A stretch of 64,000 nucleotides of DNA from Gemmiger sp. An120. GTDB lineage: Bacteria; Bacillota; Clostridia; Oscillospirales; Ruminococcaceae. The position numbers were made by a program, and so were the translations under genes. Positions 4,355-45,174 of the stretch are shown here, in pieces. The stretch's first letter is position 1; each line of letters opens with the position of its first letter. The stretch covers positions 1-64,000 of the forward strand of contig NZ_NFLN01000003.1 of assembly GCF_002160955.1 (NCBI RefSeq), written 5' to 3'. The notes beneath the pieces were generated by a model. That model saw only the letters and a list, made by a program, of their open reading frames with translations. It made no database searches and was not told the origin of the DNA.

Positions 4355-6223
4355 ATGCAACGTCATAGCGGAAGACGGGCCAAGGATCCGGCACGCACCT
4401 TGCTGCGGCTGCTGGCCTACACCTTTTTCCGGTACCGGGCGGCGGCGGTGTTTGTGGGCCTGTTTGTGATTCTGGCCGCATCGGCCAATATCGTAAGCAC
4501 CTCCCGGCTGGCCCCCATTGCCTCGGAACTGATGCGAAACGGCGCCAACGCCGATATGGGCTTCATTTATCAAAACATCCTGTTCATGGGGGTGGTGTAC
4601 CTGGTTGGCGCCCTGGCCACCTTTGCCTACAACCGGATCATGATGTACATTGCCCAGGGACCCCTGCGCACCCTGCGGGATGAAATGTTTGAACGGATGC
4701 AGCGTCTGCCTCTGCGCTTTTTCGACGCCAACACCCACGGGGACCGGATGAGCCTGTACACCAACGATGTGGACACCATGCGGCAGCTGCTGTCCCAGAC
4801 CATTCCGCAGATTCTGTCCTCCTGCATTACCATGGTGATCGCAATCGCGTTCATGCTCTGATACAGCGCCTCCCTTTCTCTGGTGGTGTTTGCTGCGCTG
4901 GCGCTGATCCTGACCTTTGTGAAGCGCAACGGCGGGCGTTCCTCCCGCTATTTTCTGGAGCAGCAGACGGCCATCGGCCGGCTGAACGGTTTTGTGGAGG
5001 AGATGACCGAGGGCCAGAAGGTCATCAAAACTTTCTGCCACGAAAAAAAGGCCGAAGAGCAGTTCCGGGCGCTGAACGACGAACTGAACCGGGTGGGCCG
5101 GGCGACCAACTCCTATGCCTTTATCATGGGGCCGGTCAACGGCAATCTGAGCTATCTGCAATATATTGTGGTGGCGCTGGCTGGGGTGCTGCTGATCCTG
5201 TTCACCGGCGATGCCGGGCTGCTCTCCGCTTACTGTGCCGCCAGCGGCGGCGGCGTGGCGGCAGCGGCTGGCGTTCTGGTTTCTTTTCTGGCCTATTCCC
5301 GGCAGATCAACGGTCCGGTTCAGCAGGTGTCCCAGCAGTTCAACGCCATCGTGATGGCGCTGGCGGGCGCCGAGCGGATTTTTGAGCTGCTGGATGCCGC
5401 GCCGGAAGACCAAGGCGGTGATATCACGCTGGACCGGGACGAACAGGGCAAATGGGTCCGGAAAAAGCCGGACGGCAGCTGTGTACCGCTGCGGGGCGAT
5501 ATTCGCTTTGAGGATGTGGTATTCGGCTACACGCCCGAAAAGGTTATCCTGAACCATATCAGCCTGTACGCCAAACCCGGGCAGAAGATTACCTTTGTGG
5601 GCTCCACCGGCGCCGGCAAGACCACCATCACCAACCTGATCAACCGGTTTTATGACATCCAGGCCGGACGCATCACCTACGACGGACTGGATATCCGGGA
5701 AATTCGTAAGGACGATCTGCGCCGCAGCCTGGGGGTTGTGCTGCAAGACACCCATCTGTTTACCGGCACAGTGATGGAGAACATCCGGTACGGCCGGCCG
5801 GAGGCCACCAACGAGGAGTGCATCCGGGCCGCCCGGCTGGCCAACGCGGACTTTTTTATCGCTCATCTGCCCGAAGGGTACCAGACCATGCTGCACAGCG
5901 ACGGGGCCAACCTGTCACAGGGGCAGCGGCAGCTGCTGGCCATCGCCCGGGCCATGGTATCCGACTGCCCGGTGCTGATTCTGGACGAAGCCACCTCCTC
6001 CATCGACACCTATACCGAAAAATTGATTAAAAAAGGAATGGACATCCTGATGGAGGGCCGCACGGTTTTTGTGATTGCGCACCGGCTGTCCACCGTGCGC
6101 AACAGTCAGGCGATCCTGGTGCTGGAGCACGGCAAAATCATCGAGCGCGGCAATCACGAGCAGCTGCTGGCGCAGAAAGGCCGCTACTACCAGCTGTACA
6201 CCGGCGCTTTTGAGCTGGACTGA
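4355..6223 (+). pseudogene. ABC exporter subunit B (canonical ATPase site), interrupted by an in-frame TGA
   Basis: Partner of the preceding half-transporter; the ATG directly follows its stop. The reading frame is continuous from 4355 to 6223 except for TGA at 4859-4861, at a place where Trp (TGG) fits (IAIAFML-stop-YSASLSLVVF). The ATPase has Walker A GSTGAGKTT, signature LSQGQRQ and Walker B VLILDEATSSID, so this is the catalytically competent half. The 169-residue N-terminal piece lacks the nucleotide domain. A reinitiated C-terminal piece from about 4883 would lack the first membrane helices. Confidence 0.88.
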
Positions 6224-6231
6224 CCTGCCGC

Positions 6232-6275
6232 TTGACAAAAAATGGCGGCAAGGTATAACAAGTAATTGGTTACTT
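6232..6275 (+). promoter_or_regulatory. Promoter and MarR operator in front of the second marR gene
   Basis: TTGACA (6232-6237), 16-bp spacer, TATAAC (6254-6259), followed directly by the perfect dyad AAGTAA-TTGG-TTACTT (6260-6275) over the expected start site. The same dyad with one mismatch lies before the MATE gene at 6826, so both promoters probably answer to the MarR protein encoded here. Confidence 0.8.
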
Positions 6276-6302
6276 ATTATGCAGACAAGTGAGGAAAACA
6301 TA

Positions 6303-6743
6303 ATGCCGGGTACAATGCCGTTTGGGCTTAAAATTGCCATTCTGAACCGGGCCTTCCGCAAGCGGATGGACGAAAAGGCGGCCGATATGGGGCTGACCAG
6401 CGTGCAGCTGCGGGTGCTGGGTTCGGTGAGCCGCCTGGAAGCAGCCGGGGAGGAAGAGATTCACCAGAACGATCTGGAACGGATCGAGCATGTGACCCAT
6501 CCTGCCATGACCAAGCTGCTGCAGCGGCTGGAGAGCAAGGGGTTTGTGCGCTGCGTACCCAGCAGCCGGGACCGGCGGTATAAAGCCATCACCTGCACCG
6601 AAAAGTCCGCGGGCATCCATAAACTGATCCTGGCACAGGACGCAGAGGTGCTGGATGAGTTCTGTCGGAATCTTACGAACGCGGAGCAGCAGACCCTGCA
6701 GCAGCTGGTGGACCGACTGCTGCAGAACGCCGATCCGGAATAA
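6303..6743 (+). CDS. MarR-family regulator, likely repressor of itself and of the adjacent MATE exporter
   Basis: 146 residues with a winged-helix core: ERIEHVTHPAMTKLLQRLESKGFV gives the recognition helix and SSRDRRYKAITCTEKS the wing. The start at 6303 has GAGG 8 bases upstream; an upstream in-frame ATG at 6279 would sit within the operator region. It has its own promoter immediately after the ABC exporter genes and is followed by a terminator, so it is monocistronic. The ligand is unknown. Confidence 0.87.
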   Translation: MPGTMPFGLKIAILNRAFRKRMDEKAADMGLTSVQLRVLGSVSRLEAAGEEEIHQNDLERIEHVTHPAMTKLLQRLESKGFVRCVPSSRDRRYKAITCTEKSAGIHKLILAQDAEVLDEFCRNLTNAEQQTLQQLVDRLLQNADPE

Positions 6744-6770
6744 AGGCCCTTGCGGGAAGATGTGTTCCCC

Positions 6771-6817
6771 AGGCAGTGTACCGCGGCACAGCCGCGAACC
6801 CGCTGCCTGCTTTTTTT
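6771..6817 (+). terminator. Intrinsic terminator after the second marR
   Basis: Stem AGGCAG/CTGCCT with an inner CGCGGC/GCCGCG stem, followed by seven T (6811-6817). Confidence 0.8.
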
Positions 6818-6825
6818 GCCGTAAT

Positions 6826-6841
6826 AGGTAACTAGTTACTT
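6826..6841 (+). promoter_or_regulatory. MarR operator in front of the MATE gene
   Basis: AGGTAA-CTAG-TTACTT, matching the AAGTAA-N4-TTACTT dyad at 6260 with a single mismatch. It lies 27 bases before the MATE start codon. No convincing -35/-10 pair can be assigned around it. Confidence 0.7.
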
Positions 6842-6867
6842 AATCGAATGAGGAGAGAGTGAAGTAC

Positions 6868-8244
6868 ATGGAAGCAACCGCATCCCAAACCAAAAGTCCC
6901 TTTTCCACCGAGCTGGTGGGCCGGCTTATTGCCAAATTTGCCATTCCCTGCGTGATCTCGCTGCTGGTGAACTCGCTGTACAACATCGTGGACCAGATCT
7001 TCATCGGCTGGGGCGTGGGTTATCTGGGCAACGGGGCCACCAACGTGGTGTTCCCCATCACCATCGTAGCGCTGAGCCTGTCGCTGATGATCGGCGACGG
7101 CGGCGCCGCCTATCTGAGCCTGAAACTGGGCGAGGGCGATGTGGAGAGCGCCCGCAAGGGCGTGGGCAACGCCATCGCGCTGGTTACCATCGTGAGTATT
7201 CTGCTGACGGCCGTATTCCTGCTTTTTATTGATCCGATCCTGACCCTGTTCGGGGCCACCGATACCCTGCGCCCCTTTGCGCTGGAGTACGGTACTGTGA
7301 TCGGCATGGGGCTTCCCTTTATGATGATCCCGGCGGCGCTGAACTCCATCATCCGGGCGGACGGAGGCCCCAAATACGCCATGTTTTCCATGGTGCTGGG
7401 CGCCATCATCAACACGGTGTTTGACCCCATCTTTATCTTTGTTTTCCATATGGGCGTGCGGGGCGCGGCCATCGCCACGGTAATGGGCCAGGTGGCCTCC
7501 TTTGTGGTATCGGTGGTGTATATGCCCCGGTTCAAGACCCTGCGGCTGAACCTGTCCGCCTTCCGGCTGCGCCGCCGCACCTGCCTGAATGTGGCGGCCT
7601 TCGGCATCAGCAGCTTTATCACCCAGTTTGCCATCACCATCGTCATGGCCCTGACCAACAACCTGCTGGCGGTATACGGGGCGGCTTCGGTGTACGGGGC
7701 GGAAATCCCGCTGACCGCCACCGGCATTGTGATGAAGGTTAACCAGATCCTGATCTCCATTCTGGTAGGCATTGCGGTAGGCGCCCAGCCCATCATCGGC
7801 TACAACTACGGCGCCCGGGACTACAAGCGGGTGAAAATCGCGCTGGATATTGCGCTGCTGGCCTCCGAGATTGTGGCGATTGCAGCTTTCCTGATCTTCC
7901 AGTTTGCCCCCATGAGCGTTGTGTCGCTGTTTGGTTCCGAAGAAGGGCTGTACAATGAATTCGCGGTCAAGGCGTTCCGGATTTTTCTGCTGCTCTGCCC
8001 GTTGACCGGTTTCCAGACGGTGGTGGCCGTCTATCTGCAGGCAGTGGGCAAGCCGGTGAAGTCCGCCATTCTGTCCCTGGCCCGGCAGATTATCTTCTTT
8101 ATTCCCGCCGCCCTGATCCTGCCCATGTTCCTGGGTGTGGTGGGCGTGCTGTGAACCGGCCCCGTGGCGGATGGTCTGGCATTTCTGCTTTCGCTGGGGC
8201 TGCTGATCTACGAGAGAAAGCAGCTGAAACAGGTTTCTGAATAA
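6868..8244 (+). pseudogene. MATE-family efflux transporter, interrupted near its C-terminus by an in-frame TGA
   Basis: Twelve-helix cation-coupled exporter of drugs and toxic compounds. The frame is open from the ATG at 6868 (AGGAGAG 10 bases before it) to TGA at 8152-8154, then continues in frame for 29 codons to TAA at 8242. The stop falls in GVVGVL-stop-TGPVADGLAFLL, where family members have an aromatic residue before GP(V/I)AD, so TGG to TGA is likely. The truncated product (428 residues) would lack most of the last helix. Regulated by the upstream MarR through the operator at 6826. Confidence 0.85.
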
Positions 8245-8269
8245 TTCACACCGAAAGGAGCAGCTATCC

Positions 8270-8848
8270 ATGAAACAACGCATTATCACCATCAGCCGTG
8301 AATTCGGCAGCGGCGGACGCACGATCGGCAAAAAGCTGGCCGAAAAGCCGGGGATCCCCTGCTATGACAACGAGCTGATCCAGAAGATTGCCGCGGAAAG
8401 CGGCTTCAATCCCGAATACATCAAGGCTGCCGGCGAGGACGCGCCCGGCGGATTTCTGGCATCGGCCTTTGCCCACACGGCAGGCGCCCCCAGCAACGCG
8501 GATTATCTGTGGGAAATCCAGTTCAAGATCATCACCGATCTGGCGGAGAAAGGCCCCTGTGTGATCGCAGGCCGCTGCGCCGACTACATTCTGCGGGACA
8601 AGGCGGACTGTCTGCGGGTGTTCATCCACGCGGATCTGCCGTTCCGGGCCAAGCGGATCGTGCAGGAGTACGGCGAGCGGGCCGAATCGCCGGAGCAGCG
8701 GCTGCGGGATAAGGACAAACGCCGTGCCGCGTACCACCGGTTCTACACCGACATGAAGTGGGGCCATGCCCAGAACTACGACATCACCCTGAACAGCGGC
8801 AGCCTGGGTATCGACCGCTGCGTGGAGATCCTGGCCGGGCTGTACTGA
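8270..8848 (+). CDS. Cytidylate kinase-like family protein
   Basis: 192 residues. The N-terminus ITISREFGSGGRTIGKKLAE is the P-loop region of the cytidylate kinase-like family common in Firmicutes. GPCVIAGRCADYIL and RDKDKRRAAYHRFYTDMKW fit the core and LID/C-terminal parts. It is a predicted nucleotide (CMP-like) kinase, but members outside true Cmk have no settled substrate. It ends shortly before the radical SAM gene, with which it may be co-transcribed. Confidence 0.8.
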   Translation: MKQRIITISREFGSGGRTIGKKLAEKPGIPCYDNELIQKIAAESGFNPEYIKAAGEDAPGGFLASAFAHTAGAPSNADYLWEIQFKIITDLAEKGPCVIAGRCADYILRDKADCLRVFIHADLPFRAKRIVQEYGERAESPEQRLRDKDKRRAAYHRFYTDMKWGHAQNYDITLNSGSLGIDRCVEILAGLY

Positions 8849-8903
8849 GCCGGGATGGGAGGGATCTTTCCTTGCGGATCTGCACAGACAGGAGGGAACC
8901 CCA

Positions 8904-10253
8904 TTGGAAGACAAATCCATGATCGAATCCATTCAGACCTTTGCCGCCCGGCAGGCGCTGGCGTTTATCGAGCGCGATCCGGAAAAGAATTTTTCCAAGC
9001 TGCTGGACTGGGCGGACAAGTTTGACGCAGGCAACCTGTACCAGGCCCAGCGGAAAGCCTTCCGCCAGGTTCTGGAGCATCCGGAAAGCAACTGGTACCA
9101 GCTGCTTTTGCGGGTATTTCAGCTGGACAAAGGGGTACGGGAAACCTTTTTGGAAAACTTCATCATCAACGCTTCGCTGATCGGCGGCACCCGCCAGCAG
9201 GCGGTGCGCCATCAGGAGAACTGCAACGTACCCTGGGCCATTCTGCTGGATCCCACCTCCGCCTGCAACCTGCGCTGTACCGGCTGCTGGGCGGCAGAGT
9301 ACGGCCACAGCCTGAACCTGGAAACGGACACCATTGACCGCATCATTCAGCAAGGCAAGGCGCTGGGTGTATACATGTACATCTATACCGGCGGCGAGCC
9401 GCTGGCGCGCAAGGCGGATCTGATCCAGCTGTGTGAGACCCATGCCGACTGTGAGTTTCTGGCCTTTACCAACGGCACCCTGATCGACGAGGAATTCTGC
9501 CAGGAGATGCTGCGGGTGAAGAACTTTGTGCCGGCCATCAGCCTGGAGGGATTTGCCGCCGCCAACGACAGCCGCCGGGGCGCGGGAAGTTTTGACAAGG
9601 CACTGGCCGCCATGCGGCTGCTGCACGCGCACAAGCTGCCTTTCGGCGTTTCCACCTGCTATACCAGCGCCAACTGGCAGGATGTAACCAGCGAGAAATT
9701 CTTTGACATGCTGATTGAAACGGGTGCGCTGTTCGCCTGGTTTTTCCATTACATGCCGGTGGGCAGCGGGGCTGTGGCTGGACTGCTGTCTGCCCCGGAG
9801 CAGCGCCGGGCGGTGTACGAACGCATCCGCGGTTTCCGGCAGACCAAACCGCTTTTCACCATGGACTTTCAGAACGACGCCGAGTATGTGGGCGGCTGCA
9901 TCGCCGGCGGGCGCAGCTATCTGCACATCAACGCTGCTGGTGACGTGGAGCCCTGCGTGTTCATCCACTACTCCAACGTGAACATCCACAACTGCTCCCT
10001 GCTGGACGCGCTGAAGAGTCCGCTGTTCATGGCCTATCACGACGGCCAGCCTTTCAACGGCAACATGCTGCGGCCCTGCCCCATGCTGGAAAATCCGGAA
10101 AAATTGCAGGCGATGGTCAAGCGCACCGGCGCCCGTTCCACCGATCTGCAGTCTCCGGAATGTGTGGACAGTCTGTGCGGCCGCTGCCGCCCCTACGCCG
10201 AAGCCTGGGCCCCCGTTGCCGACAGGCTGTGGCGCGAGACACACCAGACCTGA
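8904..10253 (+). CDS. Radical SAM / SPASM-domain protein
   Basis: 449 residues. After a roughly 110-residue helical N-terminal region comes the radical SAM motif CNLRCTGC (about 126-133), then the glycine-rich YTGGEPL SAM-binding stretch and a Cys-rich C-terminal half (GGCIAGGRSYLHINAAGDVEPC, then CPMLENP and CVDSLCGRC). That tail is SPASM-like and should hold auxiliary Fe-S clusters. TTG at 8904 is taken as start because GGAGGG ends 7 bases before it; the first ATG (8919) is 22 bases from that site. The substrate is unknown and no precursor peptide gene is seen beside it. Confidence 0.85.
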   Translation: MEDKSMIESIQTFAARQALAFIERDPEKNFSKLLDWADKFDAGNLYQAQRKAFRQVLEHPESNWYQLLLRVFQLDKGVRETFLENFIINASLIGGTRQQAVRHQENCNVPWAILLDPTSACNLRCTGCWAAEYGHSLNLETDTIDRIIQQGKALGVYMYIYTGGEPLARKADLIQLCETHADCEFLAFTNGTLIDEEFCQEMLRVKNFVPAISLEGFAAANDSRRGAGSFDKALAAMRLLHAHKLPFGVSTCYTSANWQDVTSEKFFDMLIETGALFAWFFHYMPVGSGAVAGLLSAPEQRRAVYERIRGFRQTKPLFTMDFQNDAEYVGGCIAGGRSYLHINAAGDVEPCVFIHYSNVNIHNCSLLDALKSPLFMAYHDGQPFNGNMLRPCPMLENPEKLQAMVKRTGARSTDLQSPECVDSLCGRCRPYAEAWAPVADRLWRETHQT

Positions 10254-10288
10254 TTTTCAGCCATTTTCTGTCCCCTTATTGTATGCAC

Positions 10289-10323
10289 AAAGCTCCCGTC
10301 CGGGAAACCGGGCGGGAGCTTTG
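10289..10323. terminator. Hairpin between convergent genes
   Basis: AAAGCTCCCG and CGGGAGCTTT arms with inner CCGGG/CCGGG pairing, between the radical SAM gene and the RpiR gene. The T-run is short, so termination strength is uncertain. Confidence 0.5.
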
Positions 10324-10341
10324 TGCGTCTTGTACGCCAAT

Positions 10342-11208
10342 TTACGGGCGGCGTGCCTGGCGCATCAGATCGTTGATCTGGTGCAGCCGGTCGGGATACT
10401 CCGAGGGGGCCCGCAGCACCAGCGTGGTGTACAGGCTGTCCAGTACCGAGATGTGGGCGATCCGGGAGGTGATGGCCTCGTGAATGGCGCTGCTCTCCGC
10501 CGCCGAAGTAACCAGCTGCACCTGGGCCAGCCGTGTGATGGGAGAGTCCAGATAGCTGGTAATGCAGATCACCTGCGCCCCCTGCTGCCGGGCCTGTTCT
10601 GCTGCCCGCAGGGTCTCCCGGGACTGGCCGGTGTGGGAGATGGCCACCGCCACATCCCCCGGCCCCATCCGGGAGGCCAGCAGCACCATCATATAGGGAT
10701 CCACCGCGCAGTTTACCAGCATCGGCAGACGGCTGAACCGGTAGCAGGCGTCCTGGGCAATCGGGGCCGAGGTGCCAATGCCGAAAAAGGTCACCGAGGC
10801 GGCGTTCTGCAGCAGTTCCGCCGCCCGGGTAAACTGCTCCGGCGAAAGGATCAGCATGGTCTGCTCCAGGGCCTGGCGCGTCTGCTCAAATACCCGGGTC
10901 ATCACCCGGGCGGGGGTCATTTCCCCTTCGTCGATGGTCAGGTCATCCAGGGTATGATCCAGCCCTGCCGCTGAAAGGCTGGCCGCCAGCGCCAGCTTGA
11001 AAGCGGAATAGCCGGTAAATCCCAGCCGCTGGCACAGCCGGATCACGCTGCTTTCCGACACGCCCGCCTGTCTGGCCAGCCGGGCTACCGGCATCGCCAT
11101 CGCGTCGGCAGGATGCTCCAGAATATACGCAGCCGCCTTGCGCTCCACCCCTTGCAGGGAGGGCAGCAGGCTTTGCAGCTGCACGATACAGTTTGCCGGA
11201 AGGTCCAT
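10342..11208 (-). CDS. RpiR/MurR-family regulator of the divergent sugar ABC importer
   Basis: About 288 residues: N-terminal HTH_6 domain (ARQAGVSESSVIRLCQRLGFTGYSAFK) and a C-terminal SIS domain (FFGIGTSAPIAQDACYRFSRL ... VAISHTGQSRETLRAAEQARQQG) that binds phosphosugars. The start is placed at ATG 11208 (MDLPANC) from family length. A better RBS (AAGGAGAG) lies upstream, but the ATG it serves is out of frame, so the true N-terminus is uncertain; an upstream ATG at 11313 would add 35 residues. It is divergent from the ABC importer, the usual arrangement for its target. Confidence 0.87.
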   Translation of the reverse strand: MDLPANCIVQLQSLLPSLQGVERKAAAYILEHPADAMAMPVARLARQAGVSESSVIRLCQRLGFTGYSAFKLALAASLSAAGLDHTLDDLTIDEGEMTPARVMTRVFEQTRQALEQTMLILSPEQFTRAAELLQNAASVTFFGIGTSAPIAQDACYRFSRLPMLVNCAVDPYMMVLLASRMGPGDVAVAISHTGQSRETLRAAEQARQQGAQVICITSYLDSPITRLAQVQLVTSAAESSAIHEAITSRIAHISVLDSLYTTLVLRAPSEYPDRLHQINDLMRQARRP

Positions 11209-35872: not shown

Positions 35873-38800
35873 TTAGCGGCGGCGGAACCAAAGGATGGCT
35901 GCCAAAACTGCTGCCAGAAGTACGCCCCCGCCGGCAACCGGAATAACCGGGAAACCGGATGCGGGTTCGTCTGCCGCTTCTTCCGGGGCAGGGGTGCTGG
36001 TATCCGGCGCCGGTGTGGGGCTGGCGGACAGTTCCGCCGGCTCTTCCGCCACAAGGAAGTAGAGGGAGCAATGTTCCAGCGGCAGAGAAACGCGGCCGTC
36101 CTCCCCTACCGTTACCGTGGCGATCCGTTCTGCGTCTCCGGTCTCGGGCAGCCAGTACAGCCCGCACTGCATGCCGGTAAATGCCGAAGTGTTTACCACC
36201 AGTTCCAGCTGCGCAGGGCCGGGCAGCTGGCCGGAATACTCGGTTTCAAACCCGTACCAGGGTGCGCCTGCCGCGATTTTGGCAATGCGGTCGGCCGTTT
36301 CGTTGTCCACGCCCAGGGTCACACCGGCGGCAAAGACCCCGCCGGGCAGTTCGGTGGAGACAAGCTCGCTGCCGCGGAACACCCAGGCAAAGCCTTCGCC
36401 CTCCAGCCGCAGTTCGGCGTCCGGCCGGTTGGCCAGCAGTTCAAAGGCTTTCTGGCTGACCTTGTCCTGGACCGTTACATCCAGGCGCACGCTGTCGGGC
36501 TGGGCCTTGAACGCATCGATCACCTGCTGCGCGCTGAACAGTTCGCTTTGGGTGGGCCGGGACGAGGCTTCCGGCCGGTTTTCCGCACTGGCATGCGGCG
36601 TGGGAGAGGGCATGGCTGTTGGGGTTGCCGTGGGCGCGGTGCCAGACCCACCGTCACCAGAGCCGGGAGTGGGCTCGGGTGTAGCGGATCCGCCGCCCCC
36701 CGTGGTTTCCAGCTTGCCGCTGGTGATCACATACTCGGAACAATGGTCAATGGTGATCACATAGCACCGGGTGGCCGCGTCATAGGTCACGTCGATCACT
36801 TCGGCGGGCACAATGGAGCCGTCCGCCTTGACCCAGTACAGATACAGCTGCTCCACGCCGCCGGAAGGAAGCTGGCTGGCTTTGATGGACAGGGTGGCCC
36901 GGCCCGGCAGCTGGCCGTTGTGGCTCAGGTTGACCTCCTGCAGGATCTTGTTCTGCTCGCTCTGCGGCAGCTTGTCCACTGCGGCCTGGGCCTGGTCGGA
37001 GAGTTCGTCCTCCACATTCAGCTCGGTGTCGATCGTGGTGTTTTGGATCTTTTCAAAACTCCAGCGGGCCATCTCCCGGGATTCGGTATCCAGGATGGGG
37101 AACTGCGCGGGCATATCCGCCTCCTGGATGGCGGCGAACGCCTCGGCGGACATCTTCATGCCGCCCTCGCCGGTCTCGCTTTTCTCCACCGGCAGCAACA
37201 GGGTTCCATCCTCTACCTGGGTGGTGGAAACATCCACGTTCAGGGTGGTGAGCGCCGCATCCGCGTAATAGGGAGAGGCGTACAGATGCACCGTTTTGCC
37301 TTCCAGTTCGGTATCCGGGTCATCCAGTTTCAGCACTTTCAGGATGGGCGCAGGGTTTCCGTTCCAGTAGTTCTGAGGCAGGTTCACGGTGTAGGCGGCA
37401 TCCCCCATCACCGTGGTCAGGATGGCCACGTCGGTGGTGTTGCCGGTAAACCGGCTCCACCGGGCGGTAAAGTCCTGGGTAATATTCACCTGATACTGCT
37501 GGGCCAGCGCGATGCCGTTGTTCTGCAGGGTGCAGTAGTACAGCTGGGCACCGTCCACGCCGGTGGCGCAATTGTCCACCAGCGTATTTTCCAGCCGCAG
37601 ACCGCCCATGAGCATGCCCGAAACGCCGGTGGTGCAGTTTTGGATCTGGCAGCGGCGGATCGTAAAGGGAATCCTAATTCCCTGCATGCTGTCTCCCAGC
37701 TGCTGGACGCCGCCCCGTTTGCCGCCGCCGTCCACCACCAGGTCTTCCAGCGCGAAGCTGGCCGAGGGGGCGTTTACCTGGATGATAAATCCGCCCTCCG
37801 CGTCCGGGTCCCCGGTAAAGCGGGCGGGATTCTCCGGGTCAGCACTGCGCAGGATCAGGTTTTTGCCGCTGAGATTCAGGTCCATGGGATACTCCCCGCC
37901 TTCCAGCAGCACCAGCACCGGGGTACTGGTCATGGTGATGCTCTCCAGCACCGACGGCAGGGTATCCGGGTTTGCGGTATAGGTTTCGGTTTCTTCCCTG
38001 GACTGCACCGTAAAGGTGTGGCCAATGGTCACCGTCTCCGGGGTTTTGCTTGTGTCGCAGCCAAAGGGATCGTTGTCGCTGGGGCGCTTGAGCTGAATCA
38101 CCGCGTACACATCGCAGCTGCCGCTCTTGCCGCCAGGGGTCAGGGTCACGCCAAAGCAGTTGCCCTCCGGGTTGGCGTAGCCGTTGCCCGGGAAAGCCCC
38201 GTCAGTTTCATCGGAATGGGTGATCTGCTTTTCGATCCGCAGCACCTCCGGGTCGGAGGTATAGAACTGGATGTTCTCCACCAGTTCGGCGGCAAAGCTG
38301 TAGTAACGGTCCATTTGGGTGGGATCGGCATACTGTTCCTGGGCTATGTACTGCATGGAATAGAGATAGACATCAAAGCTGCCATCCTCGGTGAAACGGG
38401 CGGTTTGCACCGGCTGGGGATTGCGGCCGCTGACCCCGGCCAGATCGCCGGTAAACTGCAGCGTTTCGTTGTAGTTGCGGCGGCTGCCGTCCAGGCCCTT
38501 GGAGTAGTAGGTAGCCGATGCCGGATACCGGATAAAGGTGTAGACGATCCGGCGCACCGTATCCCCCACCCGGATCTCCACGGTGGCCTCACCGGGTACC
38601 TGCTCCGCGTTCAGGTCCACCCGCACGCCGGACAGGCCCTCTTTCCAGACCACCGTCAGGTTCTGGGCCGCCGTACCGGTAACCACCGGTGCCGCGGTAA
38701 GGGGAAGCGCCTGGCCGTTATTGTCCTTTACGGCGTAGATGGTGCCGGGCTGCGCCTGACCGTTCAGTTCAAGGGTTTTCAGCGCGTCGCTCTGCAGAGG

Positions 38801-40396
38801 GGTCGTTCTGTTGCCGTTGTTGTTCATGCCGTCCAGGGTATAGGCCACCGTCCCCACAGACTCGCCATTTCGGGAAACGGTCAGGGTGCGGGATTCACTG
38901 ACAGCGTTTTCCGCCAGGGCTGCCAGGCACAGCCCCCACACCTGGCTGGTTTTGCCACTGCTGTCGGTGAAGTTCAGCAGCCGGGGCGTGGCCTGGATAA
39001 GGTACGGGTCGGCGCTGTCGGCCACCGTAATGCCGCTCTGTTCCAGTTCTTCCCGGGTGGCGGCGGGGCGGCCGTCAATCAGCGGGATCAGGGCATAGCC
39101 CTCGTACAGGGTAGCTATATTAAGGCTTGTCATGCTGGTATACTGGTATGAATAGGGCGGCAGCGAAGGGTTCATGCTGAAGCTGGCCAGCCAGTAGGCA
39201 GGGGCGGCCTTTACCTGCAGATTTACCACGGCCGGGCTGGCCATTCCCGGCAGGTTTGCCGTCAGGGTCCAGGAAGTATCCGCCGGGTTCACATCGGCGC
39301 TGGTCAGCGCGTAGTCCACCCGCAGGGTAACGCCATCTTCCTGCAGGGTGGCGGTAATGCCCGCCGGCAGGTTCTTTTGCAGATACTGCTCATCCAGCCG
39401 GATGGGCTGGGCACCGCTGGACGGGTTTGTGTTCTGAGGATACAGACGCAGCAGGAAGCTGCCGGACTGGCCCGCCTCCAGCTGCACCCCGGTATCCGGC
39501 ATCCAGTACTCGCTTCCTGTGCCGCTCCAGCTGTACCAGCTGCCCCACCAGCCAGCGTTGATATAGGATATCTCCAGGCTGTGCGGCTAGCTGTCCAGCT
39601 TGCCGGTCCAGGTAAGCTGGCCGCTTACCGGCTGATGCGCGGCCAGCTCCGCCAGCTTTTCAGTTGGGGTGAACACCAGGCCGTACCCCTCGCTTGTCCG
39701 GGGATCGGTAAAATACTCCGCAATGCTCCCGGTCAGCTGCATGTCCGCGGCGATCCAGTCCATGTTGGGCTGGATATACCGCAAGGCATCGCTGGTTACA
39801 TTCAGGTACACACTTGCCGCATACAGATCCGGGCCGGCAGCCTGGATGGTCAGCGGCACGTTTGTCGGCCCTTCTACCGTTACCCCCGCGTTGGGGATTG
39901 TGATGGACAGGCTCTCCTCCCCCGCGGTCAGCTTCAATGTCATCCCGAAATCCGGGCTGGCCTGGGCCAGCAGCTGGGTCAGCACCACGCTGGTATTGAC
40001 CTGCACGCCGTACTGGGCATACGTATCGTGCAGCGGGACAAACTTCACGGCGTCTTCCGGCACAAGGGTGTCGCCCAGATACAGCTGGACGGTGGTCTCG
40101 CTTTGGGTCAGCGGGTGGTCCGCATCGCCCCGGCACAGGGTGATCTCCCCGAAAGACAGCTTCAGGACCGGGATCGTACTCCCATCCCGCAGGGTATCGG
40201 TCACATAGGGCATGTCATTCTGCCCGGTTTCGTGCTTATGCAGCAGAATCAGCTCCTGCCCGGCATCGTTTACCGCCTGCGGCGCGGGGGCATCCTCCGC
40301 CCGTACCGGGGTTGCCGGCAGCAGCACACCCCACAGCAGCGCCGCACTCAGCGCCGCCGCAGCGGTCCGCCGCATGCGCTCAAACAATCTCTTCAT
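35873..40396 (-). pseudogene. Giant beta-helix surface protein, interrupted by an in-frame TAG
   Basis: One continuous frame of 1508 codons from ATG 40396 (AGGAGG upstream), broken only by TAG at 39587-39589 (codon 270; KLDS-stop-PHSLEIS). A signal peptide (about 1-35) leads into all-beta modules and a right-handed beta-helix stretch with repeated N/C-T-G turns (IQNCTTGVSG, VDNCATGVDGAQLYYC). A Pro/Thr/Ser linker (PEPTPGSGDGG ... MPSPTPHAS), a further beta domain and a C-terminal membrane anchor (VAGGGVLLAAVLAAILWFRRR) follow. No LPXTG motif. Probably an adhesin or glycan-binding protein. Third gene of the BlaI-M56 operon, 25 bases after M56. Confidence 0.82.
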
Positions 40397-40421
40397 TTTC
40401 CGTTTCCTCCTGTCGGCGGGT

Positions 40422-42173
40422 TCAGCCCGCCTTGCGCATCTCACATTCCAACCGGCTCAGCGGGTACAGGCACAGCGGATCCTCATAGCTTTCCACCGTC
40501 ACCCGCACCCCGCCTTCGCTGGTATTCTCCCACCCGGTCACACACATACGGGGTGTGGAGGTTGTTTCATAGTAATAGGTTCCTGCCGCGGCATCGAACA
40601 CAGCGGGGTCACGGCAGGAAAAATCCTCCAGGTCAAAATATTCCCGGGCCAGCTGTTCCATCCGGGCGGGAGAAAAGGGGGACGTCTCTCCTTTGTCCTG
40701 GATTGCACTGGCCATGCACACCCGGGCTACCGTTACGGGGGAAAGGCTCTGCGCCTCAAAATCCCCGGGCTCCAGCTCGGCGCACAGCCGTACCGCCAGC
40801 CGGGCGGCCTCACTGCCGGTATCCGCCCGGCGCATGCTCTCGTACTTGGCCTGGGGCATCAGACAGTCCACAAAAGGCTCCGGACGGTAGCCGGTGCGCA
40901 CCATATGAGCCACCAGTACGCCTTCACCGGAAGCATATACCCCCGCGCCGTCCTGCACGGTCACCTGGATGTAGAGCTCCGCCGCATCGGCACTGTTGCA
41001 GTACAGCCGCATCCCGTCGATCTCCAGACGCATGCCGGCCAGTTCCTCATACAATGGTGCAAAATAGGCCGCATCCATGCTGGCCTGCCCGGCCAGCGCC
41101 AGGGGATCGGCATTTTCCAGCCCTTCCGCCAGCCGCCAGGCTGCCGCGCGGAACAGATCCCGGTCGGCTTCGCTTACAAAGGGCGAGGATACCGGCAGGT
41201 AGGTATCCGCCCGAACCAGCGGATTGGTGGCGGTACACAGGAAACAGGCCACCATCGCAGCCCCCAGCAGCAGTTCGGCCCAGCGGGGCAGCCGTTTCCA
41301 GGCCAGCACGCCCCGCACACGCTGGCTCACATCCCGGTCACCAAACGCCGCATAGCCGTTCCAGCCGGAGCGGCGGCCGGCCCAATCCACCAATGCCTGG
41401 GCATAGGCCAGCTGCTGCTGCCGTTCCAGCCCGCGCAGCACCCGGGCGTCGCAGGCGCGCTCGATGTCCTGCGCCATCCGGCGGCGGGCCAGCCACACCA
41501 GCGGGTTGAACCAGTGCAGCGCCAGCGCCAGATTGGCCGCCATAAGCACCACATGGTCGCCCCAGCGAATATGGGTAAACTCATGCAGCAGGATGTACTC
41601 CCTCCCGTGTGGCTGTTCCCACAAGGAAAGCGGCAGCAGCACCCGGGGATGCACCAGCCCAAACACCAGCGGGCCCCGCACCGCACCGGTACACAGCACC
41701 GGAGAGGGCTTGCGCTGCCCCGCACGGGCCGCATAGGAGGCGGTTTCGTTTTCCGGCAGGCGATAGGCGGTGGTCAGGGAGATCCGCTGCCACAGGTACT
41801 GCGCTGCCATATACAGCAGCATGGCAGCGGCCCCTGCCGCCCAGATCCCGCAGGCCAGGCCCAGCAGCTGCTTGTACGCCAGATTCTGCCCGGCCGCCAG
41901 CGATTGTTCGCCCAGGGCGGCTGTGTCCAGATAGGCTATGCTCAGCAGCGCGCCGCCGGGTTTTTCCAGCCGTCCCGGAATCAGGTTGTACACACTGAAC
42001 CCGCTGGGAAAGGAATACGGAACCAGCAGCCGGAACAAAAAGGGCAGCCACACCAGGCAGCGGAACCCGGCGGCTCCGTACTGGCGCAGGGCCCAGCGCC
42101 ATACCAGCACCATCGCCAACAGGATGGTTGAGGCGATGCTCATATTGAGCACCGACAGAAATGCTTGCATCAT
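40422..42173 (-). CDS. M56-family (BlaR1-like) membrane metalloprotease sensor
   Basis: 583 residues. Four membrane helices (near 10-28, 35-55, 105-128 and 300-320) enclose the zinc-protease loop with HEFTH (about residue 199) and downstream ERACDARVL. The roughly 260-residue C-terminal part after the last helix would be outside and is the presumed sensor. It has no penicillin-binding SxxK or KTG motif that I can find, so beta-lactams are an unlikely signal. Such proteins cleave or inactivate a cognate BlaI repressor, encoded 30 bases upstream. Start fixed by GGAGG 7 bases before the first of two ATGs. Confidence 0.9.
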   Translation of the reverse strand: MMQAFLSVLNMSIASTILLAMVLVWRWALRQYGAAGFRCLVWLPFLFRLLVPYSFPSGFSVYNLIPGRLEKPGGALLSIAYLDTAALGEQSLAAGQNLAYKQLLGLACGIWAAGAAAMLLYMAAQYLWQRISLTTAYRLPENETASYAARAGQRKPSPVLCTGAVRGPLVFGLVHPRVLLPLSLWEQPHGREYILLHEFTHIRWGDHVVLMAANLALALHWFNPLVWLARRRMAQDIERACDARVLRGLERQQQLAYAQALVDWAGRRSGWNGYAAFGDRDVSQRVRGVLAWKRLPRWAELLLGAAMVACFLCTATNPLVRADTYLPVSSPFVSEADRDLFRAAAWRLAEGLENADPLALAGQASMDAAYFAPLYEELAGMRLEIDGMRLYCNSADAAELYIQVTVQDGAGVYASGEGVLVAHMVRTGYRPEPFVDCLMPQAKYESMRRADTGSEAARLAVRLCAELEPGDFEAQSLSPVTVARVCMASAIQDKGETSPFSPARMEQLAREYFDLEDFSCRDPAVFDAAAGTYYYETTSTPRMCVTGWENTSEGGVRVTVESYEDPLCLYPLSRLECEMRKAG

Positions 42174-42203: not shown

Positions 42204-42575
42204 CTATTGTTCTTTCTTTTTCTCGTCAAGCAGGGCCTGCAGTTCTTCCAGCGTGCCGGCTGACACCTGCTCGGAGGACAGGAAATTGGCAAACAGGCTG
42301 GTAAAGCTGCCGCCAAACATCTTATCCAGCAGGCTGCTGGTCTCGGAATGCTGTACCTGGCTGCGGCTTACCAGCGGCTCCACCCAATATTTGGGGTTCT
42401 GGCGGCGGATCGCGCCCTTGCCTTCCAGCCGCTTGAGCACAATATAGGTGGTACTCTTTTTCCAGCCATACTGCGCCATAAGATCCTCGGCTATCCGGGT
42501 TGCCATCACACGGCCATTCTCCCACAGATACTGCATAACCGTCAGCTCCGCATCGAATAGTTTGATGGGCTCCAT
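42204..42575 (-). CDS. BlaI/MecI-family repressor
   Basis: 123 residues: winged helix (LFDAELTVMQYLWENGRVMATRIAEDL, recognition helix WKKSTTYIVLKRLEGKGAIRR) and a C-terminal dimerisation tail. It ends in TAG, showing that TAG is a stop codon in this genome. GAAAGGAGG precedes the ATG at 42575. Three copies of one operator flank its own and the divergent promoter. The M56 protease gene follows directly, as in bla/mec-type systems. Confidence 0.92.
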   Translation of the reverse strand: MEPIKLFDAELTVMQYLWENGRVMATRIAEDLMAQYGWKKSTTYIVLKRLEGKGAIRRQNPKYWVEPLVSRSQVQHSETSSLLDKMFGGSFTSLFANFLSSEQVSAGTLEELQALLDEKKKEQ

Positions 42576-42606: not shown

Positions 42607-42665
42607 TTTTATCGCAACAAAATTCTTCGTTTTTCAGGATACGCGTCTCCGGCCCGCCTTGTCAA
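42607..42665 (-). promoter_or_regulatory. blaI-operon promoter with operator 1
   Basis: Minus-strand TTGACA (42660-42665), 18-bp spacer, TATCCT (42636-42641). Operator TTTTATCGCAACAAAATT lies at 42607-42624, within the first bases of the transcript, giving autorepression. Confidence 0.8.
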
Positions 42666-42681
42666 GGCTTTTTCGGAAAAT

Positions 42682-42757
42682 TTTTATCGTAATAAAATTT
42701 TTGTTGACTTTTTCCTTAACCGGTGGTATGCTCTGGTTGTTTTATCGAAGTAAAATT
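42682..42757 (+). promoter_or_regulatory. Lipoprotein promoter flanked by operators 2 and 3
   Basis: TTGACT (42704-42709), 17-bp spacer, TATGCT (42727-42732). Operator 2, TTTTATCGTAATAAAATT (42682-42699), ends 4 bp before the -35. Operator 3, TTTTATCGAAGTAAAATT (42740-42757), covers the start site. With operator 1 they share TTTTATCG-N-A-(A/G)-N-AAAATT. Binding on both sides would hold the promoter off tightly. Confidence 0.82.
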
Positions 42758-42807: not shown

Positions 42808-44145
42808 ATGAAGACTGATCGTATTCTGCGGCTGGTAAGCGCTGCGGTACTTTGCACCATGCTGGCAGCCTGCGGCGGTGAAGCCCTGGCGCCTTCCTCT
42901 TCTTCTGCCCCTGCTGCGTCGTATTCCGAGCCTGCTGCCACGCCGGAGCCTGCGGCACCGGTAAGCAAGCAGCTTACTGCCAACCTGCCGGTGGAGGGGG
43001 CGCTGACCCTGACCGCCAGCAATGTGTTCGACGGATACCAGCATGTGAGCCCCTTCTTTAACGGCTGGGCCTTTGTGTACAAGGACGGCCAGGCCGGCTA
43101 TATCAGCGAGGAGGGGGAATACAAACCCCTGTACACGGTACCGGCGGAGGAACTGTACCGGATCGATTTTTACGGGCTGCCCAGCACCTACGATCCCAAC
43201 GATCCTTACTCCTCCCCCCGCCGGGAAGAGTTGTACTGGATGGGCAACAATTTCCGCTGCAGCGAATCCGGCATCGTGCCCTATTACCGGGACGGCAAAT
43301 GGGGTTACAGTGACCTGGACGGCAACATTGTAGTGGAGCCGATATACGACCAGGTCACCTGGGTGGGCCAGGTAGCCTACGGCCTGTGCTACGAGTATGC
43401 CTCTTCGGGCGGTACCGGCGGGATCAGCCGGAAATATTACGACATCTACAACAGCCGCTGCGAACTGATTGCCGGTGAAGTTTACGCCGCCTGGGCCGAC
43501 CCGGCATACGGCTATTACTTTATGGACGATGACCAGGACGGCGCCGGTGAACTGTACAATGCAGACGGTTCGCTGGTGATGGCGGACATGCCCTACGGAT
43601 ACGGCAACTGCCTTTCCACCGGGGCCGAATACTACCCTGGCGGCATTGTGTACAATGGGGTGGCCTATGACCGCACCGGGGCCGAACTGCCGGTGGATGC
43701 GGATACCATCGACCGGTTTTATCCCAATTGGCTGGCCGTATGGGACGAGGCAGCGGACGACGACATCGGTGTGGATCTGAATGGTCAGCCTCTGCTGGAT
43801 GCCGGTTTATGGATGGCGGGCGATCCGGACGAAACCGGGGCCCAGTATCTGGGCGTACAGGGCAGCCAGGCGATTCGCCGGTACGATGCCCAGTTCAACG
43901 AGCTGGCCACTCCGCCGCTGCTGCGCGCCGCCAAAGGTACCAGCTATACCAATGAGGCAGGCAAGGAAGTAACCCCCATATCCATTCTGGATCAGGATGG
44001 CCAGGAGGTCATGACGCTGGAAGCTGTGGAACCCCCGGTGCACCCGGTTTATTATCCCGCTGAACCTCTTGTGGAGGGTGACTGGCTTTACTGGTGCCCC
44101 GACCGGGATACTGTCATCCCGTACCGGGTGACGGCGGTGCAGTAA
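42808..44145 (+). CDS. WG-repeat-type lipoprotein, predicted BlaI target
   Basis: 445 residues. A lipobox signal (VLCTMLAACGG, lipidated Cys near residue 21) is followed by a Ser/Ala/Pro-rich spacer and then repeats of the WG type: FFNGWAFVYKDGQAGYISEEGEYK and YYRDGKWGYSDLDGNIVVEPIYD. It should be anchored outside the membrane. AAAGGAG precedes the ATG. It is divergent from the BlaI-M56-surface protein operon and shares its operator motif, so it likely belongs to the same response. Confidence 0.8.
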   Translation: MKTDRILRLVSAAVLCTMLAACGGEALAPSSSSAPAASYSEPAATPEPAAPVSKQLTANLPVEGALTLTASNVFDGYQHVSPFFNGWAFVYKDGQAGYISEEGEYKPLYTVPAEELYRIDFYGLPSTYDPNDPYSSPRREELYWMGNNFRCSESGIVPYYRDGKWGYSDLDGNIVVEPIYDQVTWVGQVAYGLCYEYASSGGTGGISRKYYDIYNSRCELIAGEVYAAWADPAYGYYFMDDDQDGAGELYNADGSLVMADMPYGYGNCLSTGAEYYPGGIVYNGVAYDRTGAELPVDADTIDRFYPNWLAVWDEAADDDIGVDLNGQPLLDAGLWMAGDPDETGAQYLGVQGSQAIRRYDAQFNELATPPLLRAAKGTSYTNEAGKEVTPISILDQDGQEVMTLEAVEPPVHPVYYPAEPLVEGDWLYWCPDRDTVIPYRVTAVQ

Positions 44146-44286: not shown

Positions 44287-45174
44287 ATGGAACTGCGGGT
44301 TTTGAAATATTTTCTGGCGGTGGCACGGGAAGAAAACATCACCCGGGCCGCGGCGCTGCTGCATCTGACCCAGCCCACCCTGTCCCGGCAGCTGATGCAG
44401 CTGGAGGAGGAACTGGGAGTGCAGCTGTTTTACCGCAGCCGGTACCGCATTGTGCTGACCGACGACGGAATGCTTCTGCGGCGGCGCGCCCAGGAACTGG
44501 TGGATCTGGCGGAAAAGACCGAACAGGAATTCCGCCGGGATCCGGAGCTGCACGGCGAAATCGCCATCGGCAGCGGTGAGCTGGAGGGAATGCATCTGCT
44601 GGCGGAATGGCTTGCTTCCTTTCATCAGCTGCACCCCCGGGTGACCTACCGGCTTTCCAGCGGCAACGCCGACCACACCAAAGAACGGCTGGAGAACGGC
44701 ACACTGGATCTGGGCCTTTTACTGGAACCGGTGGATATCAGCCGGTATGATATTCTGCGTATGCCGGTCAAGGAGCACTGGGGCGTACATCTGCCGGAAA
44801 ATTCGCCTTTGGCGCAAAAAGAATCCGTAACTGCCCAGGATCTGGCGCAGATTCCGCTGATTCTGACCGAGCGGGGCCTGGTGCAGAAAGAACTGGAACG
44901 CTGGTTCGGCCCGTATGCGGCGAATATCCAGGCTGTGGCCACCGGAAACCTGCCCTACAACATGGCGACCCTGGCCCGGGCCGGCATGGGCGCTTTTATC
45001 ACCGTGCAGCTGCGCTGCCAGTATGAGGGGCTGCGGTTTGTGCCGCTCTCCTCTGCTCTTGAATCGGACACGGTGCTGGCCTGGAAGAAAACCGAGTCCT
45101 TTCCGCCGGCCTTTGCGGCGCTGCTGGATCACATCCGGCAATGCCTGGCAGCTATTTCTGACGATTCAAAGTAA
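44287..45174 (+). CDS. LysR-family transcriptional regulator
   Basis: 295 residues: N-terminal HTH (MELRVLKYFLAVAREENITRAAALLHLTQPTLSRQLMQLEEELG) and a two-lobed effector domain starting near residue 90 (ELHGEIAIGSGELEG). A possible promoter TTGTGC-17-TAGGAT lies about 30-60 bases before it. The next operon (MerR-flavodoxin-cupin-AKR) on the same strand is a likely target. Confidence 0.92.
   Translation: MELRVLKYFLAVAREENITRAAALLHLTQPTLSRQLMQLEEELGVQLFYRSRYRIVLTDDGMLLRRRAQELVDLAEKTEQEFRRDPELHGEIAIGSGELEGMHLLAEWLASFHQLHPRVTYRLSSGNADHTKERLENGTLDLGLLLEPVDISRYDILRMPVKEHWGVHLPENSPLAQKESVTAQDLAQIPLILTERGLVQKELERWFGPYAANIQAVATGNLPYNMATLARAGMGAFITVQLRCQYEGLRFVPLSSALESDTVLAWKKTESFPPAFAALLDHIRQCLAAISDDSK

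Follow-up and report, generated by a model that had tools for sequence, protein, structure and literature searches.

Gene organization of the locus

The locus considered here encodes a BlaI-type repressor and a BlaR1-like membrane protein, divergently to a lipoprotein gene, and raises the question of what this regulatory pair controls, through which DNA sites, and whether beta-lactams have any part in it. The window, as the term is used below, is the whole analyzed stretch of 64,000 nucleotides. Its relevant features are the following:

35873–40444, minus strand: gene of a giant exported protein, third in the operon, with an in-frame TAG, a weak beta-helix match and a C-terminal hydrophobic segment
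40422–42173, minus strand: M56 membrane metalloprotease, BlaR1-like, 583 aa, with HExxH at residue 197 and a distinct C-terminal extracytoplasmic domain
42204–42575, minus strand: BlaI/MecI-family repressor, 123 aa (PF03965; alignment with MecI/BlaI structures)
42607–42622: putative operator O1, dyad TTTTAT-CGCA-ACAAAA, within the early transcribed region downstream of the blaI promoter
42636–42665, minus strand: predicted promoter of the blaI operon (TTGACA at 42665–42660, 18 nt, TATCCT at 42641–42636), its position conserved in relatives
42682–42697: putative operator O2, dyad TTTTAT-CGTA-ATAAAA, the shared central site adjoining the plus-strand -35
42704–42732, plus strand: predicted promoter of the lipoprotein gene (TTGACT at 42704–42709, 17 nt, TATGCT at 42727–42732), its position conserved in relatives
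42740–42755: putative operator O3, dyad TTTTAT-CGAA-GTAAAA, on the transcription start predicted for the lipoprotein gene
42808–44145, plus strand: WG-repeat lipoprotein, 445 aa, lipobox LAAC, the proposed divergent target

The repressor belongs to the Penicillinase_R family (PF03965) with E=4.5e-25 and 88.7 bits against a curated cut-off of 22.6. Its recognition helix, WKKSTTYIVLKRLE, is invariant in 12 members of its clade (clade BlaI below) except for one Q, and the N-F cleavage bond is kept, as the ANF of the protein aligns with the LNF of the MecI/BlaI structures; the clade BlaI of G002 has S-F, not N-F, at this position. The giant exported protein, overlooked as the third operon gene in an earlier note on this DNA, is encoded with an in-frame TAG (39587–39589, minus strand) in the window copy and uninterrupted, in one reading frame, in the relatives (L064, L065, L066 and L071). 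In the window copy the WG repeat of the lipoprotein narrowly misses its Pfam cut-off, which several orthologs exceed.

Putative operators around the divergent promoters

The earlier note had described an 18-bp motif in three copies, and exact matches are indeed found at 42607 (TTTTATCGCAACAAAATT), 42682 (TTTTATCGTAATAAAATT) and 42740 (TTTTATCGAAGTAAAATT). With up to three mismatches allowed the motif gives 7 matches in the 64-kb window versus 0.24 expected, and a pattern search of the 3.39-Mb genome returned three exact copies, all of them at O1–O3 and none scattered over non-promoter sites, together with one further match with one mismatch elsewhere. What the note had overlooked is the two-fold symmetry of the sites: the core is a 16-bp imperfect dyad with the consensus TTTTAY-N4-RTAAAA, and the CG included in the original motif TTTTATCG does not belong to the conserved sequence, not being kept in relatives. 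The positions given in the note for the sites, two on the start sites of opposite promoters and one against a -35, agree with our analysis, as do the promoter calls. Both predicted promoters are sigma-70-like, divergent and sandwiched by the three sites, O1 starting some 5 nt past the predicted minus-strand transcription start, O2 ending 4 bp before the plus-strand -35 and O3 covering the predicted plus-strand start.

A weight matrix built from the sites of other species only placed O1–O3 at ranks 1–3 in the window (32.1, 28.4 and 28.2 bits), the next best score elsewhere in the window being 16.3 bits, 12 bits below the lowest of the three, and the top score in 100 random windows being 19.3 bits. 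The training sites of this matrix were chosen with the half-site of the window as a guide; free of that weakness is the dyad search without a seed, which recovered TTTTA-N6-TAAAA in all seven lipoprotein promoter regions (16 occurrences), whereas across 300 shuffled sets no dyad was present in more than 3 regions. Genome-wide scoring was done by pattern searches. In these the loose 12-base dyad occurs at about background frequency, so that a single site alone does not predict regulation, and clustering at promoters does. The loose pattern WTTTAYNNNNRTAAAW was dropped as a regulon predictor, its totals being close to those of the reversed-pattern control; the additional single WTTTAYNNNNRTAAAW matches inspected in this genome (C12, C16) lie inside coding sequence.

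In the five-species alignment of the divergent regions, identity amounts to 92% in the half-sites, 89% in the promoter hexamers and 44% in the remainder, and the distance between operators is kept at 73–77 bp across the blaI promoter and 53–59 bp across the lipoprotein promoter. These data bear on the explanation that the sites are merely AT-rich promoter elements (UP elements or spacers) serving no dedicated regulator, to which their A+T-rich composition and their position next to promoters in a window of 61% G+C lend some appeal. Such elements, however, would not be expected to combine two-fold symmetry, a fixed 4-bp center, matrix information (28.5 bits) concentrated in the half-sites, copies downstream of start sites and a conservation standing so far above that of the surrounding sequence, and we regard this explanation as very unlikely.

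Conservation of the sites and their link to the BlaI clade

Among named genomes, the closest are those of uncultured Gemmiger, Ruthenibacterium, Anaerofilum and Candidatus Fournierella. Within the Ruminococcaceae, the clade blaI genes of relatives are preceded by the same kind of dyad at similar spacing, and operators are present at 7/7 orthologs of the WG-repeat lipoprotein gene; upstream of L063, which encodes a clade BlaI, there is no clear dyad. Clade BlaI and clade M56 proteins co-occur in the same 9 of 248 genomes of the family, and the lipoprotein is found in 7 of the 248, all within these nine, which are related and do not therefore represent nine independent events. All three proteins are absent from G001, a genome of the same genus.

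Several genomes have the parts of the locus separated. The lipoprotein and blaI genes lie on different contigs in G154, where the lipoprotein gene keeps two operators (L108), and in G131, whose lipoprotein gene has paired operators and, next to it, a remnant of blaI of 32 aa (L109). G222 has three operators with its M56, giant and lipoprotein genes but no blaI at that place (L107, C75); its clade blaI is found as an orphan on a different contig, with a dyad of its own (L118, C25). The neighbors of this orphan are genes resembling a two-component system. In paralogous operons the giant gene likewise carries dyads of its own (L112, L071, L072, L074). One of these, a second blaI-M56-giant operon, belongs to the genome studied here (L112, G000:C7:30000-46000, 4522–11022); as its dyads are similar and its BlaI has an identical recognition helix, cross-regulation between the two operons is possible.

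The pairing of BlaI with the dyads rests on comparison, and a LysR-type regulator is encoded downstream of the lipoprotein (44287–45174), so the same genes might in principle be controlled by a different regulator acting on the dyads, with BlaI binding elsewhere or nowhere. Against this, the dyads precede clade blaI genes even where no lipoprotein gene is adjacent (L064, L067, L074, L112 and L118), in the same clade-bearing genomes, and the window offers BlaI no site of the classical type, KACANNTGTM being absent from it versus 1.4 matches expected. We consider a different regulator improbable; O1–O3 are very probably operators of the adjacent BlaI.

The M56 partner and the proposed target genes

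The membrane partner carries an M56 domain at 149.8 bits against a cut-off of 31, and HExxH is present in 10/10 of the M56 homologs compared. What the earlier note missed is the absence of a recognizable beta-lactam sensor in this BlaR1-like protein: SxxK occurs in 0/10 ectodomains of the homologs, the M56 domain is the only Pfam domain above cut-offs in all ten, and a transpeptidase match is lacking in them up to E=1. The profile match to the solved BlaR1 structure (PDB) is limited to residues 8–312, and NCBIfam blaR1_generic gives 80.7 bits, below its cut-off of 400. The structural model of the protein is of moderate confidence (mean pLDDT 64); in it the outer domain is predicted to begin with three helices and then four long strands, after which comes another helical part that includes three strands, an arrangement suggestive of a known small fold, which we leave unnamed. 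In G002, the M56 gene (L070, 5201–6949; C17) contains one in-frame TGA, for which a mutation or an assembly error is possible.

The conserved neighbors include neither a beta-lactamase nor a PBP gene, the giant exported protein and the WG-repeat lipoprotein being found instead; the check for resistance genes among the targets was made on these conserved neighbors, the rest of the genome being covered non-exhaustively. In the literature we found nothing relevant on M56 systems controlling WG-repeat lipoproteins. The BlaI and M56 BlaR1 families and the divergent layout, as in bla/mec, would also suit a classical beta-lactam-responsive system with a drifted operator. The truncated structural match, the missing penicillin-binding domain and SxxK motif in ten homologs and the conserved targets of another kind speak against it, and we give this explanation very little weight. 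The locus is probably a non-penicillinase regulator, judging from these comparisons; a bla regulator pair probably wired to envelope proteins means that its automatic annotation as penicillinase regulation misleads.

Other BlaI paralogs

Nine BlaI paralogs are encoded in the genome. At six other loci (five in this genome and one orthologous in G001; among L139–L145) an M56 protein of varying length is encoded next to blaI, and at a seventh (L142) there is no adjacent M56 gene. The outer parts of these six M56 proteins differ, with no penicillin-binding match in any of them and an M23 peptidase domain in one. In alignments comprising two to four orthologs, other BlaI clades appear to have upstream dyads of their own: CTCTAA-N4-TTAGAG (L017/L011/L012/L013), GTTTAC-N4-GTAAAC (L021/L026), CCACA-N2-TGTGG (L004/L008/L010/L022) and TCTACA-N3-TGTAGA (L024/L020/L028/L015). 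The last of these led us to drop a simple rule relating recognition-helix residues to operator letters, since the helix of the L024 clade, KKSTTYTVLKRL, is nearly the same as that of the repressor studied here, yet the sites are so different.

The BlaI-M56 pairs of gut Ruminococcaceae may serve generally as insulated membrane signaling systems, an expanded family comparable to two-component systems, each clade having its own operator code and the present locus being one channel for surface proteins; we see about equal grounds for accepting and for doubting this generalization.

Proposed regulation

Taken together, the data make it highly likely that the adjacent BlaI, acting on O1–O3, represses both divergent units and that this repression is relieved via proteolysis by the M56 protein. 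Sequence comparison supplies the evidence for the operators and how well they are conserved, for their association with the BlaI clade and its targets and for the lack of a recognizable beta-lactam sensor; that BlaI binds, represses and is cleaved, and that a signal exists, is what we infer. BlaI dimers would occupy the TTTTAY-N4-RTAAAA dyads beside or on the starts of both promoters, jointly repressing the blaI-M56-giant exported protein operon and the lipoprotein gene. The M56 protein would sense an envelope or extracellular signal through its C-terminal, non-penicillin-binding domain, and its cytoplasm-facing protease would then cut BlaI at the conserved N-F bond, so that the repressor leaves the DNA. 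Considering that both the N-F bond and HExxH are conserved, derepression by proteolysis is likely. The surface proteins would be made until the autoregulated blaI gene replenishes the repressor.

Comparison with known systems

The classical half-site of Bacillus licheniformis and Staphylococcus aureus reads T-T-A-C-A-T towards the dyad center. The half-site found here reads TT followed by T-T-A-Y-N-N in the same direction. As compared with this operator and with the consensus given in PMC7253601, the TA(C/T)-N4-(A/G)TA core is thus retained, equally far from the dyad center, whereas the inner CA/TG is lost and the inner A is not required, so that the code appears shifted rather than unrelated. 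The distinct BlaI specificity proposed in the earlier note is correct inasmuch as the sites differ from KACANNTGTM, an operator that membership of the BlaI/MecI/CopY family does not presuppose, as other members deviate from it too (PMC8457756); the shared core and the existence of non-classical precedents suggest a less isolated case.

The BlaI/BlaR1 and MecI/MecR1 systems of S. aureus and B. licheniformis share with the present locus the BlaI fold family, the M56 partner with HExxH, the N-F bond of the repressor and paired operators around an autoregulated divergent promoter, and the proteolytic switch is known for S. aureus BlaR1 (PMC9834060). They differ in the half-site (TACA/TTACA versus TTTTAY), in possessing a class D-like penicillin sensor, for which no counterpart was recognized here, and in their targets, blaZ and mecA in place of the putative ones encoding the WG-repeat lipoprotein and the giant exported protein. 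For CopY/CopR, a related repressor family, it has been proposed that two operators obstruct the -35 and the polymerase, but the operator is RNYKACANNTGTMRNY and the response is to copper, without an M56 protease (PMC7253601).

A further comparison is offered by BlaI_0696 and BlaI_1845 of Clostridium thermocellum, likewise clostridial BlaI proteins with non-classical half-sites, paired dyads and a very small autoregulatory regulon (PMC8457756). Their half-sites are GTCTAT and GACTAT with a spacing of 5 nt, versus 4 here, and their specificity was demonstrated experimentally, by DAP-seq and gel shift (PMC8457756), whereas ours is derived by comparing sequences. Variation of BlaI operators is therefore already known in kind; the operator code described here is specific and testable, and the paralogs of the same genome offer a natural series for studying how BlaI proteins choose their DNA.
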